Shown one piece after another: positions 3,414 to 34,911 of a stretch of DNA of 36,954 nucleotides (its first letter is position 1; every line of letters starts with the position of its first letter). This stretch comes from Nitrospirales bacterium (GTDB lineage: Bacteria > Nitrospirota > Nitrospiria > Nitrospirales > UBA8639), in contig JAJEJG010000010.1 in the NCBI GenBank assembly GCA_022828225.1, positions 1 to 36,954 of the forward strand, written 5' to 3'. Under the pieces are notes generated by a model. That model saw only the letters and a list, made by a program, of their open reading frames with translations, had not been told where the DNA came from and ran no database searches. Both the position numbers and the translations under genes were made by a program.

Positions 3414-4214
3414 ATGGAAGCAGAACGTGTTGCAACACAGGAAGAGGGCGGGGTGGCCGAGCCGCAGGCCCAAGAGCAGCAGTTGACGCCGGATGAAGAG
3501 ATTGCGGAACTTGAAAAGTTGCTCAGTGAAGAGCCGGACGATTTTCAAGCCCGTTGCCGGTTGGGCGAGTTGTATTTTGGGAAAGGGAAACTGGAAGAGG
3601 CCCTGACCGAAGTCAAAAAGGCCATCGAAATGGCCGAGGGGTTGAGAACCGAAATGGATCGATCTCTGGCCATGTATTATTCCAACTTGGGTACGATCTA
3701 CGGCACCAAGGGGATGATGGACGATGCCCGTCCCCAATTCGAGCGGGCGCTGGAGTTGAACAAGTATGACGTGCTGTCCCTGTTCAATCTGGGAAGGCTC
3801 CATAACGACAAGAAAGAATACATGCAGGCCAAGGAATATTTCGAGCGATTAATCGAAATTACCCCGGAAGATCCGATTGCCTGGTATAATCTGGCAGGCG
3901 TCTATGAAGAGTTGGATAATCCGCAGATATCGGACTACAACACCCTGGATATGGCGGTGCAGGCCTATATGAAGGTTTTGGAATTCGATCCCAAACACTT
4001 GGAGTCCAGTTTTAAACTCATGGACATTGCGTTTACGTTGAAAAAATCCGACATGGCTGTAAAAATCATGGAAGAAGCCGTTGAGCACAGCCCGGATGAG
4101 CCGTTGGCGTACTACAACCTCATCAATACCTATGAAAAGTGTAAAATGTTCGAGCAGGCCGAAGAAGCGCGCCAACGGCTAAAGCAGCGGTTTGCAAAAC
4201 GAGCCCGTGACTGA
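3414..4214 (+). CDS. tetratricopeptide-repeat protein
   Basis: About 266 residues, mostly TPR units. Recognisable repeats include ARCRLGELYFGKGKLEEAL, YYSNLGTIYGTKGMMDDAR, LFNLGRLHNDKKEYMQAK, AWYNLAGVYEELDN and a final AYYNLINTYEKCKMFEQAE. The N-terminus is acidic and Gln-rich, with no signal peptide, so a cytoplasmic scaffold is expected. The ATG at 3414 is preferred because AGAGGA lies upstream; a TTG at 3393 in the same frame overlaps the preceding stop and has no ribosome binding site. Some nitrite oxidoreductase clusters (for example in anammox bacteria) include a TPR protein, so a role in assembling the neighbouring redox proteins is possible. That link is inference from position. Confidence 0.8.
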   Translation: MEAERVATQEEGGVAEPQAQEQQLTPDEEIAELEKLLSEEPDDFQARCRLGELYFGKGKLEEALTEVKKAIEMAEGLRTEMDRSLAMYYSNLGTIYGTKGMMDDARPQFERALELNKYDVLSLFNLGRLHNDKKEYMQAKEYFERLIEITPEDPIAWYNLAGVYEELDNPQISDYNTLDMAVQAYMKVLEFDPKHLESSFKLMDIAFTLKKSDMAVKIMEEAVEHSPDEPLAYYNLINTYEKCKMFEQAEEARQRLKQRFAKRARD

Positions 4215-4241
4215 CGGCGTTGGTATGAAGAGAGTTCCCTT

Positions 4242-4375
4242 CTGTCATTCCCGACGTTAGTAATCGGGAATCCAGTGTCTTTTGTCTTCACGGAGAAGGA
4301 GAAAGCAAAGACGCTGGATCCTAATGGATTGCCTGGATCCCCGATCGAGTCGGGGACAAGCGTCGAGGATGACAG
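4242..4375. repeat. REP-like palindromic repeat doublet, family A
   Basis: A roughly 134-bp imperfect palindrome that starts CTGTCATTCCCGAC and ends in the complementary ATGACAG (4369-4375). Each half has a small hairpin followed by an ATCCAGTGTCTTTTG-like tail. Related doublets occur at 11968-12058 and 15732-15831. It fills the gap between the TPR gene and tatA. Confidence 0.75.
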
Positions 4376-4395
4376 ATTGAAAGGAGAAGACCATC

Positions 4396-4707
4396 ATGTT
4401 TGGGAGTTTAGGGTTTACCGAGTTGATTTTGATACTGTTCATTGTGTTGATCATATTCGGCGCCGGGAAATTGCCCCAACTCGGTGAGGGGGTCGGGAAA
4501 GCGATCAAGGGCTTCAAGAAATCCGTGAATGAAGCGGAAGCCGTTGACCTCGAGGCGCAGAATATCGCAGACCAACAGGCTCAGGCCCAGGTGAGTCCGC
4601 ACGGTGCGGACGCGGCGCCACCGCCGGCCCCGGCTCCTCAAGGCGATCAAACGGTTGCTCCGGCACAAGCCGCTCAACCGGAACCGGCGGAGACGCCGAA
4701 GAGTTAA
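4396..4707 (+). CDS. tatA: twin-arginine translocase subunit TatA/TatE
   Basis: 103 residues, normal for TatA. The N-terminus [30 protein letters not shown] is the diagnostic hydrophobic helix, the FG.GKLP hinge and the start of the amphipathic helix ([15 protein letters not shown]). The rest is a low-complexity, Ala/Pro/Gln-rich tail. TatA oligomers form the pore that exports folded cofactor-bearing proteins across the inner membrane. The start is preceded by AAGGAG at about 4380-4385. No tatB or tatC is nearby, so this copy must work with components encoded elsewhere. Its place inside a block of periplasmic redox genes suggests a dedicated supply of export capacity, as folded molybdo-enzymes need Tat; this is inference. 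Confidence 0.92.
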
Positions 4708-10154: not shown

Positions 10155-10192
10155 TTCCCCTCCTTTGTAAGGAGGGGCAGGGGAGGTAGAGG
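10155..10192. repeat. palindromic repeat, family B
   Basis: A 21-bp perfect palindrome with arms CCCCTCCTT / AAGGAGGGG around TGT (10157-10177), followed by GCAGGGGAGGTAGAGG. The same unit occurs at 24499-24536, 34836-34870 and, split by a transposon, at 31929-31953 plus 34795-34809. Here it lies between the convergent cytochrome and ilvD genes. Confidence 0.85.
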
Positions 10193-31570: not shown

Positions 31571-31822
31571 ATGAAGCGCACCTTTAAAGTGAAAGCCGTG
31601 TGGGATGCCGATGCAAAGGTTTTCTATTCCCAAAGCGATATCGAGGGTCTGCATATCGAGGCCGCCGACCTTGACGAATTTGAAGAAATCCTGATGGACG
31701 TGGCGCCTGAATTGATTATCGCCAATCATCGGACTGCCCCCGAGATTGCCGAGCATTCTTTCAAGGACCTGATCCCGGCTATTCTGTGGCAACGGCCGGA
31801 GACGGAAACGGCGGCCGTATAA
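31571..31822 (+). CDS. DUF1902 / HicB-like antitoxin-type protein
   Basis: 83 residues. KRTFKVKAVWDADAKVFYSQ, SDIEGLHIEA and DVAPELIIANH follow the DUF1902 pattern, a partial-RNase-H/HicB-like fold commonly found in antitoxins. It lacks a DNA-binding C-terminus of its own. AGGAGAGG stands before the ATG. The next reading frame, 21 bp downstream, is a stub that resembles the start of a TumE-type toxin. If that is right, this is an antitoxin whose toxin has been destroyed. GC content is like that of the surrounding chromosome. The DUF assignment is fairly sure; the antitoxin role is inference. Confidence 0.75.
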   Translation: MKRTFKVKAVWDADAKVFYSQSDIEGLHIEAADLDEFEEILMDVAPELIIANHRTAPEIAEHSFKDLIPAILWQRPETETAAV

Positions 31823-31843: not shown

Positions 31844-31939
31844 ATGGCCGAAAATCCCCTCGGATCCCTTGCCGATTATAGTCATTTCGTTGCTGAAACC
31901 CTGAATCGTCCTTCCAGCCGCAAGATCTACCTCCCCTGA
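31844..31939 (+). pseudogene. truncated TumE/DUF6516-like toxin stub
   Basis: 31 codons: MAENPLGSLADYSHFVAETL then NRPSSRK, after which the frame runs into a family B palindromic repeat and stops at TGA 31937-31939 inside it. From memory, DUF6516 (TumE-type) toxins begin NPLESLAEYSRFVAELLNRP, a close match, and are about 140 residues long. The remaining ~110 residues are not found after the repeat and transposon either. It follows the DUF1902 gene in the same direction, as a toxin would. The identity needs a search, since only about 25 residues can be compared. Confidence 0.5.
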
Positions 31940-31953
31940 CCCCTCCTTACAAA
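31929..31953. repeat. family B palindromic repeat, left part (split by transposon)
   Basis: CTACCTCCCCTGACCCCTC plus CTTACAAA, which is one copy of the target duplication. With 34803-34809 it rebuilds a complete 21-bp palindrome, arms CCCCTCCTT / AAGGAGGGG around ACA. Confidence 0.85.
31946..31953 (+). repeat. 8-bp target site duplication, left copy
   Basis: CTTACAAA directly before the left inverted repeat; identical to 34795-34802. Eight bp is the usual duplication for IS1595-family elements. Confidence 0.93.
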
Positions 31954-31976
31954 GGGAATTATATACAATCCTAGAC
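31954..31976 (+). repeat. terminal inverted repeat, left
   Basis: 23 bp beginning GGGAATTATATACAA; exact reverse complement of 34772-34794. Just inside it lies another inverted repeat, GGTGGTC (31988-31994) / GACCACC (32014-32020), which could fold in a read-through transcript. Confidence 0.95.
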
Positions 31977-32093
31977 GGGCGTGGGAAGGTGGTCAATGAG
32001 TCCAAAGCCTTACGACCACCGGCTCATGTTCTATTTTCCCTCTGGTTTCTTTTCTCTGTTGCTTCCCTATTGCAATCTTATAGGAGATAGTAA

Positions 32094-32963
32094 ATGATCA
32101 ATTCTAATATAGTTCCGTCTAATTCAAGGTCTGGCGTGAAGTTTTGTTATTGTGATGAGAGTGGTGTAGGTGACGAACCGATTGCTGTTATGGTCGGCGT
32201 AGTTGTAGATGCGTCTCGGATGCATTTGACTAAAGATGACTGGCAAGAATTGTTAGGCAGCGTATCTAAGTTTGTTGGCAAACCTATTCCAGAATTACAT
32301 ACAAAGGCGTTCTACGCTGGGAACAGTCCATTTCGTGATCTAACGGGAACACAGCGATCTAACATCATATCAATAATTTATGATTGGTTGGCGGAGAGAA
32401 AGCATCATGTCGTCTACACCTCGGTTTTCAAAGAAAAGTATGAAAATTCTTTTGCGAAAGGCGATATCCCTGATGAACTAAATACGGTATGGCGTTTTCT
32501 TGGGTTTCATTTGGTGTTGGCTATGCAGAGGCATTGTCAGAAGCAAGCAAAACAAAAAGGGCATACGATTTATGTGTTTGATAACAAAGAACGTGAAGAG
32601 AAGAGATTTGTAGATATTATTTTGAGGCCCCCTAAGTGGAGTGATGAATACTATGGTCGCAAACTAAGGCAAAAACAACTCGATCAAATCATTGACGTGC
32701 CTTATTTTGGTGACTCTAAAGACGTGGGACTGATTCAGCTTGCCGACTTTTTTTCGTTCTTTTTACGACGTTATGCAGAAATTTCCGAAGGACTGGCCAA
32801 GCCGAATTATAAGGATGAGCGTTCAAAGCTTTCAAACTGGATTAAGATATTTGCAGAACGATCCATAGGGAGGGCGCATATTTACCCTAAAGGGTCCCTG
32901 AATTCGGCAGAAGAGTTGTTTTTTAACCACGCTCCGCCGTCTATCAGAATTCTCGGAAGCTAA
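32094..32963 (+). CDS. DUF3800 protein (transposon passenger)
   Basis: 289 residues. The DUF3800 hallmarks are the N-terminal YCDESG (Asp21-Glu22), PELHTKAF near 66-73, YVFDNKEREE with Asp163 and KDVGLIQLADFFSFFLRRY with Asp210 and Asp218. These acidic positions fit an RNase-H-like nuclease fold, though activity is not shown for the family as far as I know. The gene is visibly richer in A/T than the chromosome around it, with many TTT/AAA codons, which marks foreign origin. ATAGGAGA precedes the ATG. It lies upstream of, and in line with, the transposase inside the element. Possible roles are a transposition accessory factor or a defence nuclease; neither is shown here. Confidence 0.85.
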   Translation: MINSNIVPSNSRSGVKFCYCDESGVGDEPIAVMVGVVVDASRMHLTKDDWQELLGSVSKFVGKPIPELHTKAFYAGNSPFRDLTGTQRSNIISIIYDWLAERKHHVVYTSVFKEKYENSFAKGDIPDELNTVWRFLGFHLVLAMQRHCQKQAKQKGHTIYVFDNKEREEKRFVDIILRPPKWSDEYYGRKLRQKQLDQIIDVPYFGDSKDVGLIQLADFFSFFLRRYAEISEGLAKPNYKDERSKLSNWIKIFAERSIGRAHIYPKGSLNSAEELFFNHAPPSIRILGS

Positions 32964-32982
32964 GTATGCTCTACGAAAATCC

Positions 32983-33011
32983 TTGACACCAAGTCCTATT
33001 TTTGGTACAAT
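32983..33011 (+). promoter_or_regulatory. consensus sigma-70 promoter of the transposase
   Basis: TTGACA (32983-32988), 17-bp spacer, TACAAT (33006-33011). The predicted start is about 33018, 33 bp before the ATG. It lies just after the DUF3800 stop, so the transposase has its own promoter. Confidence 0.85.
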
Positions 33012-33041
33012 ACTAGACATATTCAACGACCAAAAATAGGA
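32994..33041 (+). promoter_or_regulatory. 13-bp perfect inverted repeat across promoter and ribosome binding site
   Basis: TCCTATTTTTGGT (32994-33006) and its exact complement ACCAAAAATAGGA (33029-33041). The left arm fills the -35/-10 spacer; the right arm contains the Shine-Dalgarno TAGGAG (33037-33042). Transcripts from the native promoter start between the arms and leave the ribosome binding site free. Read-through transcripts contain both arms and should hide it. It could also be a protein-bound operator. Confidence 0.75.
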
Positions 33042-33050
33042 GCGACGATC

Positions 33051-34001
33051 ATGCCGAAGAAAGCCCCTGGAAAACACTACCGACACGGAATCAGCTTGGT
33101 GGAATTGATTGACCGATTCCCCGACGAAGCCTCAGCGCGGACATGGTTTGAATCCATCCGATGGGCCAAGGGTCGGACGTGTCCGCATTGTGCCTCCACG
33201 GAAACCAAGCCGGTTCCGAACGAGAATCCCATGCCGTATCATTGCGGGGCCTGTCGGAAGTATTTCAGCGTGAAAACGGGAACGGTCATGCAGTCCAGTA
33301 ACTTGCCCTTGAGAAAGTGGGTCATCGGGTTTTACCTCATGTCCACGAACCTCAAAGGGGTGTCCAGTATGAAACTCCATCGGGATTTGAAAGTGACGCA
33401 AAAGACGGCCTGGATGATGGCGCAAAAAATTCGGCAAGCATGGAATCTGGACCAAGCGATGTTAGCCGGTCCCGTCGAAGTGGATGAGACCTATATCGGC
33501 GGCAAAGAGAAGAACAAACACCAAAGTCTGAAACCGAAGAAACTCCGAGGGACAACGGGCAAGCAAGCCGTCATTGGGATGCGGTCACGCAAGGGGCAGA
33601 TCAAGGCCAAACCCATTGCTGGAACGGATCGCGGCACCTTGTGGAATGAGATTGAACAGAACGTCCCGAAGGGCAGCACGCTCTATACAGACGACCACGG
33701 AGCCTATCGGGGTCTGGATATGTCGGACTACGACCATCATGTGGTCAATCATTCAGCCAAGCAATACGTGAACGACCAAGCCCACACCAACGGGATTGAA
33801 TCCTTTTGGGCTATGCTCAAGAGAGGCTACCACGGCACGTTTCACAAGATGAGTGTGAAGCACCTGCATCGGTACGTGAACGAGTTTGCCGGACGGCATA
33901 ATATTCGGGAAGCGGACACGATTGAACAAATGGCATTCTTGGCTCAGGGTGTCGTGGGGAAACGGTTGCCGTATAAGGAATTGATTGCCAATGTCCGTTG
34001 A
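33051..34001 (+). CDS. IS1595-family (ISXO2-like) transposase
   Basis: 316 residues, full length. An N-terminal zinc ribbon has C44-x2-C47 and C65-x2-C68 (CPHC, CGAC). A helix-turn-helix-like stretch follows (SSMKLHRDLKVTQKTAWMMAQKIR). The DDE-type catalytic domain has VEVDETYIGGKEKNKH with Asp145, LYTDDHGAYRGL with Asp214/215, and TNGIESFWAMLKRGYHGTFH with Asn247, Glu250 and Lys257. TAGGAG lies 8 bp before the ATG. All catalytic positions are intact, so the protein should be active. Its GC content resembles the host chromosome, unlike the DUF3800 neighbour. Confidence 0.95.
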   Translation: MPKKAPGKHYRHGISLVELIDRFPDEASARTWFESIRWAKGRTCPHCASTETKPVPNENPMPYHCGACRKYFSVKTGTVMQSSNLPLRKWVIGFYLMSTNLKGVSSMKLHRDLKVTQKTAWMMAQKIRQAWNLDQAMLAGPVEVDETYIGGKEKNKHQSLKPKKLRGTTGKQAVIGMRSRKGQIKAKPIAGTDRGTLWNEIEQNVPKGSTLYTDDHGAYRGLDMSDYDHHVVNHSAKQYVNDQAHTNGIESFWAMLKRGYHGTFHKMSVKHLHRYVNEFAGRHNIREADTIEQMAFLAQGVVGKRLPYKELIANVR

Positions 34002-34082
34002 TTGAAGGGTGGTGGAGACGGGCCAGCCGAGGCTACCTTGGCTGGGAGGAAAGCGGCCCCAACTAATGCTGTTTGGTTAGCA

Positions 34083-34343
34083 ATGCGGCAAAAATGGAAA
34101 GAGAAGATCGCGCAGTGGGGGATAGTGGGGTCTAGTGTTTTGGTCATTGTTATTGCCAGAAAGCAGGATCAGATAAACGCGTTCATCCTGGACCACCTCA
34201 GCATTATCCTTCTCCTTATCGCTCTTGTTTGTGTCAATCTTGGCATAGCCGTCTACGAATGGAAAATGAAGCTAGAGAAGCAACTTGAAAGTCTCGACGA
34301 GAAAGCCACGAACATTATCGAGAGACTGGATGAAAATGACTGA
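34083..34343 (+). CDS. small membrane protein, transposon passenger
   Basis: 86 residues from ATG 34083. Two hydrophobic stretches (WGIVGSSVLVIVIA and LSIILLLIALVCVNLGIAV) are followed by a charged, probably coiled-coil tail (KLEKQLESLDEKATNIIERL). A longer reading frame from TTG 34002, immediately after the transposase stop, would add a Gly-rich segment with no ribosome binding site; I do not prefer it. The upstream 80 bp contains a hairpin, AGCCGAGG / CCTTGGCT. No family recognised. It overlaps the next gene by 8 bp, which supports that it is translated. Confidence 0.55.
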   Translation: MRQKWKEKIAQWGIVGSSVLVIVIARKQDQINAFILDHLSIILLLIALVCVNLGIAVYEWKMKLEKQLESLDEKATNIIERLDEND

Positions 34344-34581
34344 CTATTTGTGCACTCATGTTCTACCCCATCGGCACCCGCCTTGGGACGTGACCTATTC
34401 CGTGGACAATCACGAGGAAGGCACGGGTTGGGGCGCCTATAGTTATCATTGTTTTGAGATTCCGTGTGGGTCCAATCGGCGGGCCGGAGAGAAACGGAAA
34501 TGGATCAAGGGGAGTGTTGCGCAAGCGGAGCAGGCCGGATTCGTGGCGTGCCGTCGGTGCCTGAAGCCATTAAGCCCATAA
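34336..34581 (+). CDS. 81-residue Cys/His-rich protein, transposon passenger
   Basis: Starts ATGACTGA, overlapping the stop of the membrane protein by 8 bp. The sequence is mixed and aromatic (YLCTHVLPHRHPPWDVTY, GWGAYSYHCFEIPCGSNRR) and ends GFVACRRCLKPLSP. The C-x2-C at the end with earlier Cys/His could bind a metal. No family recognised. It is a separate short gene within the element and has no counterpart elsewhere in the window. Confidence 0.55.
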   Translation: MTDYLCTHVLPHRHPPWDVTYSVDNHEEGTGWGAYSYHCFEIPCGSNRRAGEKRKWIKGSVAQAEQAGFVACRRCLKPLSP

Positions 34582-34596
34582 CGTATAAGTGCGCGC

Positions 34597-34761
34597 ATGA
34601 AGCCTAAACCCAAAAAGTCTCCCAAACCCAAGCGTCCCCGTGGCCGTCCTGCAACACGAGTCATTGAACCCATAGACGCGCCTCCCGAAGAAATCGTCAA
34701 AGCCGTCTTTCGGGTGGCCGATACTAAGCGGGATTGGCAGGTCAAGAAGGACGCGCACTAA
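34597..34761 (+). CDS. 54-residue basic protein with AT-hook-like start, transposon passenger
   Basis: The N-terminus is Lys/Pro/Arg-rich (KPKPKKSPKPKRPRGRPATR), with an RGRP core like an AT-hook, which binds the minor groove of A/T-rich DNA. The second half (IDAPPEEIVKAVFRVAD) forms a probable amphipathic helix. The stop is 10 bp before the right inverted repeat. Small proteins of this type occur in many genomes as hypothetical proteins. A role in binding transposon ends is speculative. It was missed by a minimum-length ORF search because it is short. Confidence 0.5.
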   Translation: MKPKPKKSPKPKRPRGRPATRVIEPIDAPPEEIVKAVFRVADTKRDWQVKKDAH

Positions 34762-34771
34762 CCACTTGGCT

Positions 34772-34794
34772 GTCTAGGATTGTATATAATTCCC
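34772..34794 (-). repeat. terminal inverted repeat, right
   Basis: 23 bp ending TGTATATAATTCCC; exact complement of 31954-31976. Confidence 0.95.
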
Positions 34795-34802
34795 CTTACA
34801 AA
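34795..34802 (+). repeat. 8-bp target site duplication, right copy
   Basis: CTTACAAA, identical to 31946-31953, directly after the right inverted repeat. Confidence 0.93.
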
Positions 34803-34870
34803 GGAGGGGGACAGAAGGTGAAACGACCAGCTTTTCCTCCCCTTTGTAAGGGGAGGGCAGGGTGGGGTAG
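34803..34870. repeat. remainder of split family B repeat and a second, inverted copy
   Basis: GGAGGGG (34803-34809) completes the palindrome interrupted by the transposon. After a 26-bp spacer, arms CCTCCCCTT / AAGGGGAGG around TGT (34836-34856) and a GCAGGGTGGGGTAG tail form a second copy in opposite orientation. The original locus was thus a repeat doublet. Confidence 0.8.
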
Positions 34871-34911
34871 AGTTGAACGTGAGTCATAAGGGCAGGTCGG
34901 GTTGGCGTAGC

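Follow-up and report, generated by a model that had tools for sequence, protein, structure and literature searches.

A conserved AT-hook gene and a two-gene cargo at the right end of an IS1595-family transposon from a Nitrospirales genome

Three small open reading frames packed against the right end of a mobile element may be a single functional cassette or may each be there for reasons of their own, and which of these applies is the question raised by a 36,954-nucleotide stretch of a Nitrospirales genome (contig JAJEJG010000010.1, here termed the window). As the original prediction stated, the three ORFs lie at the right end of the element, the 81-residue Cys/His protein (ORF2) begins at the end of ORF1, with the two frames overlapping in ATGACTGA, and the 54-residue AT-hook-like protein (ORF3) stops 10 bp short of the right inverted repeat (34772-34794); the coordinates bear out each of these points. 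Three same-strand ATG ORFs in a row, each of at least 54 aa and with overlaps of up to 20 nt permitted, occurred in 16 of 5000 dinucleotide shuffles of positions 34002-34774. We consider it likely that the three ORFs make up the right-hand half of a passenger-carrying IS1595-family transposon, ORF3 being a conserved gene of the element and ORF1 and ORF2 the cargo of a slot.

The transposon occupies positions 31954-34794 (2,841 bp) and contains all three small ORFs. Terminal inverted repeats GGGAATTATATACAATCCTAGAC at either end, together with 8-bp CTTACAAA target duplications, are those of the IS1595 family, as is the transposase, which matches the catalytic domain DDE_Tnp_IS1595 (PF12762) over positions 1-153 of 153 (E 7.1e-46), has the N-terminal zinc-finger (zinc ribbon) domain PF12760 (E 2.1e-8; 34.4 bits against a cut-off of 25.4) and reaches 195 bits with NCBIfam model NF033547 (cut-off 75). 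With the passengers DUF3800, ORF1, and ORF2 between its own ends at 31954 and 34794, the element is a transporter IS (tIS). The left-hand passenger has a GC content of 0.42, versus 0.53 for the transposase gene, and only a weak match in PADLOC (E 0.0095). The promoter-like site between these two genes (Table 1) agrees with 11 of 12 consensus positions, and six such sites are present in the window against 3.4 expected. A second full match to 33000-34800 was not found in the same genome, an Rfam search of 31900-34900 returned no match, and no terminator-like site was found. We considered a leader RNA before ORF1 and dropped it, as Rfam was empty and the predicted fold of 33990-34090 barely beats shuffled sequences (z -1.23). 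A DUF1902 gene (31571-31822) lies just beyond the left end of the element.

Table 1. Features of the transposon and of its immediate flanks, in window coordinates
Feature	Position	Strand	Basis
Target duplication, left copy, 8 bp, CTTACAAA	31946..31953	.	End comparison
Left terminal inverted repeat, GGGAATTATATACAATCCTAGAC	31954..31976	+	23/23 identical to right end
DUF3800 gene, 289 aa, left-hand cargo	32094..32963	+	Pfam PF12686, E 4.5e-13
Promoter-like site, TTGACA-17-TACAAT, ahead of the transposase and later genes	32983..33011	+	Consensus match only
IS1595-family transposase, 316 aa	33051..34001	+	Pfam and NCBIfam
ORF1, cargo gene for a small membrane protein of 86 aa	34083..34343	+	ATG start; hydropathy
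ORF2, cargo gene for an 81-aa Cys/His protein with weak likeness to the Ada zinc domain	34336..34581	+	Overlap with ORF1; relatives
ORF3, AT-hook (PRGRP) protein, 54 aa, conserved element gene	34597..34761	+	Homologues behind related transposases; pN/pS <1
Right terminal inverted repeat, 23 bp	34772..34794	-	End comparison
Target duplication, right copy, 8 bp, CTTACAAA	34795..34802	.	End comparison

When homologues of the three ORFs were sought together, they did not turn up as a set. Among the first 57 loci, tblastn detected ORF3 in 11 besides the window's own copies (L006, L007, L034-L041, and L044), and found ORF1, ORF2, and the DUF3800 gene in the window's own copies only. Two of these loci, L006 and L036, have an identical ORF3 and are therefore probably one place. 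In the tblastn loci, ORF3 comes after the transposase and in its orientation, with the exception of L044, where it is inverted. Because its homologues hold the frame and six pairwise comparisons gave pN/pS values of 0.28-0.58, ORF3 looks like a coding gene, and the check on codon conservation that accompanied the original prediction came out in its favor for this ORF.

An AT-hook consists of a PRGRP core with basic flanks, and ORF3 contains one in the form KRPRGRP. In an alignment of the family (22 rows), the G-R-P of the core is invariant, and a second motif of the approximate form I-x-A-T-P-E-x-I-A-x-A-I is recognizable. No model in Pfam or NCBIfam scored above its cut-off with ORF3, and there was no match in PADLOC. 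Profile searches, in which the genomes drawn include those taken as centers, recovered ORF3 from 8 of 295 Nitrospirota genomes (every one from a single genus), 10 of 18 genomes with related transposases, 8 of 385 genomes belonging to the class of L041, 7 of 57 from the phylum of L039, and 14 of 395 from that of L045. The hosts are labeled Nitrospirota, Dadabacteria, Alphaproteobacteria, Nitrospinota, Chloroflexota, and Gemmatimonadota, labels that may err because most of the source genomes are, by title, draft or metagenome derived. Queries with the homologue from L041 retrieved nothing from plasmids, and those with the family alignment retrieved nothing from viral contigs. In most cases ORF3 closes the element as its final gene, next to the right end; in L130, L138, and L186, it is 147 to ~330 bp away from that end. 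Two further loci have unusual layouts: L141 holds a ~720-bp element (~3891-4612, reverse strand) with IS1595-like ends that has kept ORF3 and in which a transposase was not detected, as if it were a short non-autonomous element, and L126 (1320-3260, reverse strand) has three consecutive genes without a Pfam family, possibly further cargo, followed by a remnant resembling ORF3 and by an IS1595-like end.

The distribution of ORF3 follows the transposase phylogeny. In a tree of 46 transposases, all 15 ORF3-positive rows fall within one clade of 19 rows (support 99/97), and the ORF3 label changes four times along the tree, against a mean of 12.7 when labels are shuffled (0 of 500 shuffles were that low). 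ORF3 was not detected for four rows of the clade: L069 and L070 reach the contig end, L072 ends in a 66-aa ORF that by eye resembles the second half of ORF3, and L042 has 5 kb of downstream sequence without ORF3. Within a single transposase clade, then, ORF3 is conserved as a second gene.

What lies between the transposase and ORF3 is far less constant. Among 48 ORF3 loci, a count that includes two weak profile matches that are possibly not true ORF3 (L137 and L139), a transposase or its remnant is found in 34, preceding ORF3 in the same orientation at a distance of up to 6 kb; it is not found in the other 14, as judged within the fetched stretches, some of which stop at a contig edge. The slot holds restriction-modification (R-M) genes in 21 of the 34, is empty in 5, and has other contents in 8. 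Pfam matches above the curated cut-off confirm the R-M assignment in 16 of the 21 (L034, L035, L037, L039, L040, L041, L068, L123, L124, L129, L131, L132, L133, L143, L185, and L187), and for L077, L134, L135, L180, and L181, it relies on tblastn matches to proteins of the Pfam-confirmed loci. ORF3 directly follows the transposase in L036, L038, L142, L144, and L182 (remnants in L142 and L144), and no R-M gene was seen in the slots of the window, L122, L130, L138, L179, L183, L184, and L186. Some of the R-M matches are marginal (L077, 57 bits; L180, 61 bits plus a BglII match below cut-off; L123, 27.3 against a Pfam cut-off of 26.7), and the second genes of L068 and L124 have no Pfam family. 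The cargoes of L132 and L181 are 97-99% identical, so these two loci are not independent; L140 and L145 carry methylase genes without a transposase and are outside the 21.

The R-M systems are of varied kinds, including methylase-HNH fusions, an EcoRI-type methylase with a GmrSD-HNH enzyme, a C5-methylase with an HNH protein, an IIG-type methylase with a specificity subunit (PADLOC), a methylase with a weakly BglII-like protein, and a methylase-Mrr combination. In five loci (L034, L037, L040, L041, and L068), transposase and cargo genes overlap by 1 or 4 nt. As a control, we inspected 27 IS1595 loci outside the clade, 17 of which have, on the strand of the transposase, an ORF of at least 120 aa beginning within 900 bp downstream; in 2 of the 27, both from the window's genus (L073 and L076), this ORF is a DNA methylase. 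The control loci often have shorter downstream sequence than many of the ORF3 loci and were not scored by identical criteria, so we give no test value. This Pfam-based control replaces one based on similarity only (1 of 27), which was biased, its queries having come from ORF3 loci. Neither profile matches to ORF1 and ORF2 nor tblastn with 21 proteins from the R-M loci revealed an R-M gene in the slot of the window. The slot thus holds different contents in different elements, most commonly an R-M system, and from these changing contents between a transposase and a conserved ORF3, it follows that ORF1 and ORF2 are the cargo of the slot in the window. Membrane proteins also occur on the other side of the transposase: L034 (4349-4939) and L035 (4385-4930) encode related ones (29% identity) upstream of it, that of L034 having no Pfam family, and different membrane proteins are likewise located upstream in L039, L040, and L043.

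The target site of the element is itself repetitive. Joining its two flanks restores a palindrome, two further copies of which are present within the window (copies at 10157, 24501, and 34794, centered on CCTCCTTACAAAGGAGGGG); the 16-base core CCTTACAAAGGAGGGG, allowing up to two mismatches, has 230 matches in the genome versus 1 for the reversed control pattern, and a strong hairpin is predicted at 34755-34870 (z -4.0). Two elements from Nitrospira sp. SB0677_bin_15, L034 and L035, are bordered by the duplications TTTACAAA and CTTACAAA and have the same ACAAAGGAGGGG flank, and two more distant elements (L071 and one on contig C10 of the window's genome) are bordered by CTTACAAA and its complement TTTGTAAG. 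Judging from these sites, IS1595-type elements of the window's genus seem to insert repeatedly into the palindromic repeat. Exact 8-bp duplications border 13 ORF3 elements, counting the window, L034, and L035; the duplicated 8-mers are others in L038, L040, L041, L129, L130, L131, L134, L143, L186, and L187. The duplication of L044 is imperfect (7/8), and L138 and L179 have ends without matching duplications. On C10 of the window's own genome, the second IS1595-like element (L065, 835-5580, reverse strand), with ends GGGACTTATATATCAAACTACA and duplication TTTGTAAG, has genes that by eye are HicA/HicB-like, on the strand opposite to its transposase.

The two cargo genes of the window differ in how far they can be traced. 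ORF1, whose ATG is 81 bp past the transposase stop and is not preceded by a Shine-Dalgarno site that we could see by eye, had been described as a two-helix membrane protein; a 19-residue hydropathy window retains one strong segment (residues 39-57) and leaves the N-terminal hydrophobic stretch below threshold. It has no homologue in the first 57 loci (own copies aside) or in 58 further genomes, and none of ten other proteins compared with it matched at E 0.1. Residues 2-78 give a single weak match to the PADLOC model PDLC03819 (RTasSLATT; E 0.005, 14.6 bits), and the Pfam SLATT models give none at E up to 1; the match would fit a role in defense and is not strong enough to alter its probability.

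ORF2, which has an alternative in-frame start (ATG 34330) that would lengthen it to 83 aa, is related to proteins from three further genomes of the genus and from one genome of the order. Relatives were present in 3 of 58 further genomes (L155, L156, and L157), and the ORF2 profile matched in 4 of 295 Nitrospirota genomes, namely, its own, that of L156, one with a small ORF (L160), and one with an Ada-like protein (L161; E 3.5e-4). In L155, the ORF2-like gene overlaps at its stop with the gene of a small protein in which a hydrophobic stretch was seen by eye; in L156, the ORF2-like domain is fused to a membrane segment; and in L157, the ORF2-like gene is broken and lies behind an ORF read by eye as an adenine methylase. 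These couplings and fusions of ORF2 relatives to membrane segments make it probable that ORF1 and ORF2 act together. ORF2 and two relatives at 36-39% identity have C6, H12, C39, C44, W56, C72, and C75 in common, among other residues. ORF2 had no PADLOC match and no homologue in plasmids or phages, and the L156 protein likewise retrieved nothing from plasmids; the one match in a viral contig (L149), a short stretch antisense inside a 643-aa ORF, was dropped. With the Ada model PF02805, ORF2 scores 17.9 bits against a cut-off of 23. Its predicted structure (pLDDT 69.1, built from three sequences) matches 1wpk at Z 2.5 (rmsd 3.6 over 59 residues), the sole Z of at least 2 among 12 chains, and yields just two matches in Foldseek, both with E values of 7 or worse. 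A weak likeness to the Ada zinc domain thus recurs, and we do not file ORF2 as Ada.

We propose that the transposase through ORF3 would be read as one message from the promoter-like site at 32983 and that the transposase would recognize the ends with their AT-rich core AATTATATAC. ORF3, short and basic, could use its PRGRP core to bind AT-rich ends of the TTATATAC type by way of the minor groove, and it might help the transposase to pair the ends or mark them as those of the element. From its motif and position, we give such an end-binding, transposase-aiding role for ORF3 an even chance. Cargo read together with the transposase would give the element a stake in its host, and R-M systems give such a stake through defense and post-segregational killing. 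That ORF1 and ORF2 form a membrane-anchored zinc-protein pair is somewhat more probable than the end-binding role of ORF3; that this pair benefits the element or the host, perhaps in defense or addiction, is the function we favor for it, though with odds clearly below even, and position, gene coupling, and the one weak match lead to it. More speculative still is the idea that two-gene IS1595 elements, consisting of a transposase and an AT-hook microprotein, are a class of vehicles specialized for immunity modules, with the microprotein as a separate end-binding subunit that permits long cargo and SLATT-like ORF1 plus Ada-like ORF2 as a new defense or addiction system in the slot that R-M systems occupy in relatives.

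The idea from which the question arose, that ORF1, ORF2, and ORF3 together are one toxin-antitoxin or immunity cassette, draws on the overlap or tight spacing of the three, the presence of a membrane protein beside small partners, the frequent defense genes of the slot (R-M in 21 of 34 loci), and the SLATT-type match of ORF1. Its immunity component is, for ORF1 and ORF2, partly supported by position and by that match, and translational coupling, which had been taken as a sign of expression for all three, is plausible for the ORF1-ORF2 pair. The three genes are nevertheless not one unit: ORF3 is separate and goes with the transposase, directly behind it in 5 of 34 loci and without ORF1 and ORF2 in 11 tblastn loci, and relatives of ORF2 occur in stretches where ORF3 was not noticed by eye. 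None of the three ORFs matches a toxin or antitoxin family above the curated cut-offs of Pfam and NCBIfam, models to which new families are invisible; ORF1 and ORF2 match no defense family above those cut-offs, and PADLOC has no match for ORF2 or ORF3. We regard the single cassette as improbable. Another view, that ORF1 and ORF2 are functionless debris of older cargo, is helped by the absence of ORF1 homologues from 58 other genomes and by the 81-bp gap before ORF1, where the cargo of five related loci overlaps the transposase gene. Yet both frames are open and joined by a coupling-type overlap, ORF2 retains the cysteines and other residues common to its two relatives, and two relatives of ORF2 likewise have a membrane partner, so that decay of the pair seems doubtful to us, about as much so as the vehicle class just outlined.

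Less readily set aside is the possibility that ORF3, rather than helping transposition, regulates the cargo or the transposase promoter, its AT-hook acting as a repressor or activator that, for example, balances R-M genes. ORF3 often adjoins or overlaps R-M genes, and an IS1595-family element, ISNha5, is reported to have transcription regulators as passengers (PMC11891212). Against control of the cargo, ORF3 is kept right behind a transposase that has no cargo in 5 of 34 loci, an arrangement that control of the transposase promoter could accommodate, and it is present in the window, where an R-M gene was not found. We rate a regulatory ORF3 as unlikely, on a par with a defense or addiction benefit from ORF1 and ORF2, and retain the reading of the three ORFs as a conserved element gene behind slot cargo.

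For the question of how R-M systems pass from one genome to another, a small transposon with a fixed slot offers a concrete vehicle, one whose R-M system differs from copy to copy in genomes labeled as six phyla. The slot could be mined for new defense genes, with ORF1-ORF2 as the first candidate, and a conserved protein of ~50 residues beside a DDE transposase presents a testable case of a helper subunit.

Among known proteins, the cargo pair has two partial counterparts. Measured by the cysteine spacing of Ada, cysteines 39, 44, 72, and 75 of ORF2 are spaced nearly like those of the Ada N-terminal zinc domain (PF02805, 1wpk); ORF2 differs in falling below the Pfam cut-off, in a fold similarity of only Z 2.5, and in being 81 aa long with no further domain found. 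ORF1 residues 2-78 resemble the SLATT-type defense membrane proteins of PDLC03819 (RTasSLATT) at E 0.005, but this is a single weak match, and the genes identified in the element include neither a reverse transcriptase nor any other SLATT partner.

Passenger-bearing IS1595 elements are already known. In the literature searched, neither R-M cargo nor an AT-hook gene appears for IS1595 elements among the matches listed or in the passages covered, and in passages naming both IS1595 and R-M or methylase, the terms occur separately and unconnected. The family is described as having terminal inverted repeats and an 8-bp target duplication (PMC5704250, PMC8101967), with an N-terminal zinc-finger domain except in the IS1016 group and a single transposase gene (PMC8101967). 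MTnSag1 (tISSag10) and tISCpe8, which as described encode lincosamide resistance, a transposase, and nothing else (PMC5704250), resemble the present element in their IS1595-type transposase, 23- to 25-bp inverted repeats, 8-bp duplication, and passenger between the ends (PMC5704250, PMC8101967), whereas here a conserved AT-hook gene closes the element and the slot of its relatives is most often occupied by R-M genes. ISNha5, of the same family, is described in one review as carrying transcription regulators as passengers (PMC11891212). A further parallel is with Tn3-family transposons, in which toxin-antitoxin pairs reside in the transposition module (PMC7157771): there as here, genes for transposition are linked with a module of the maintenance type, with the differences that the transposase is another one and that the module in the relatives of the present element is an R-M system.
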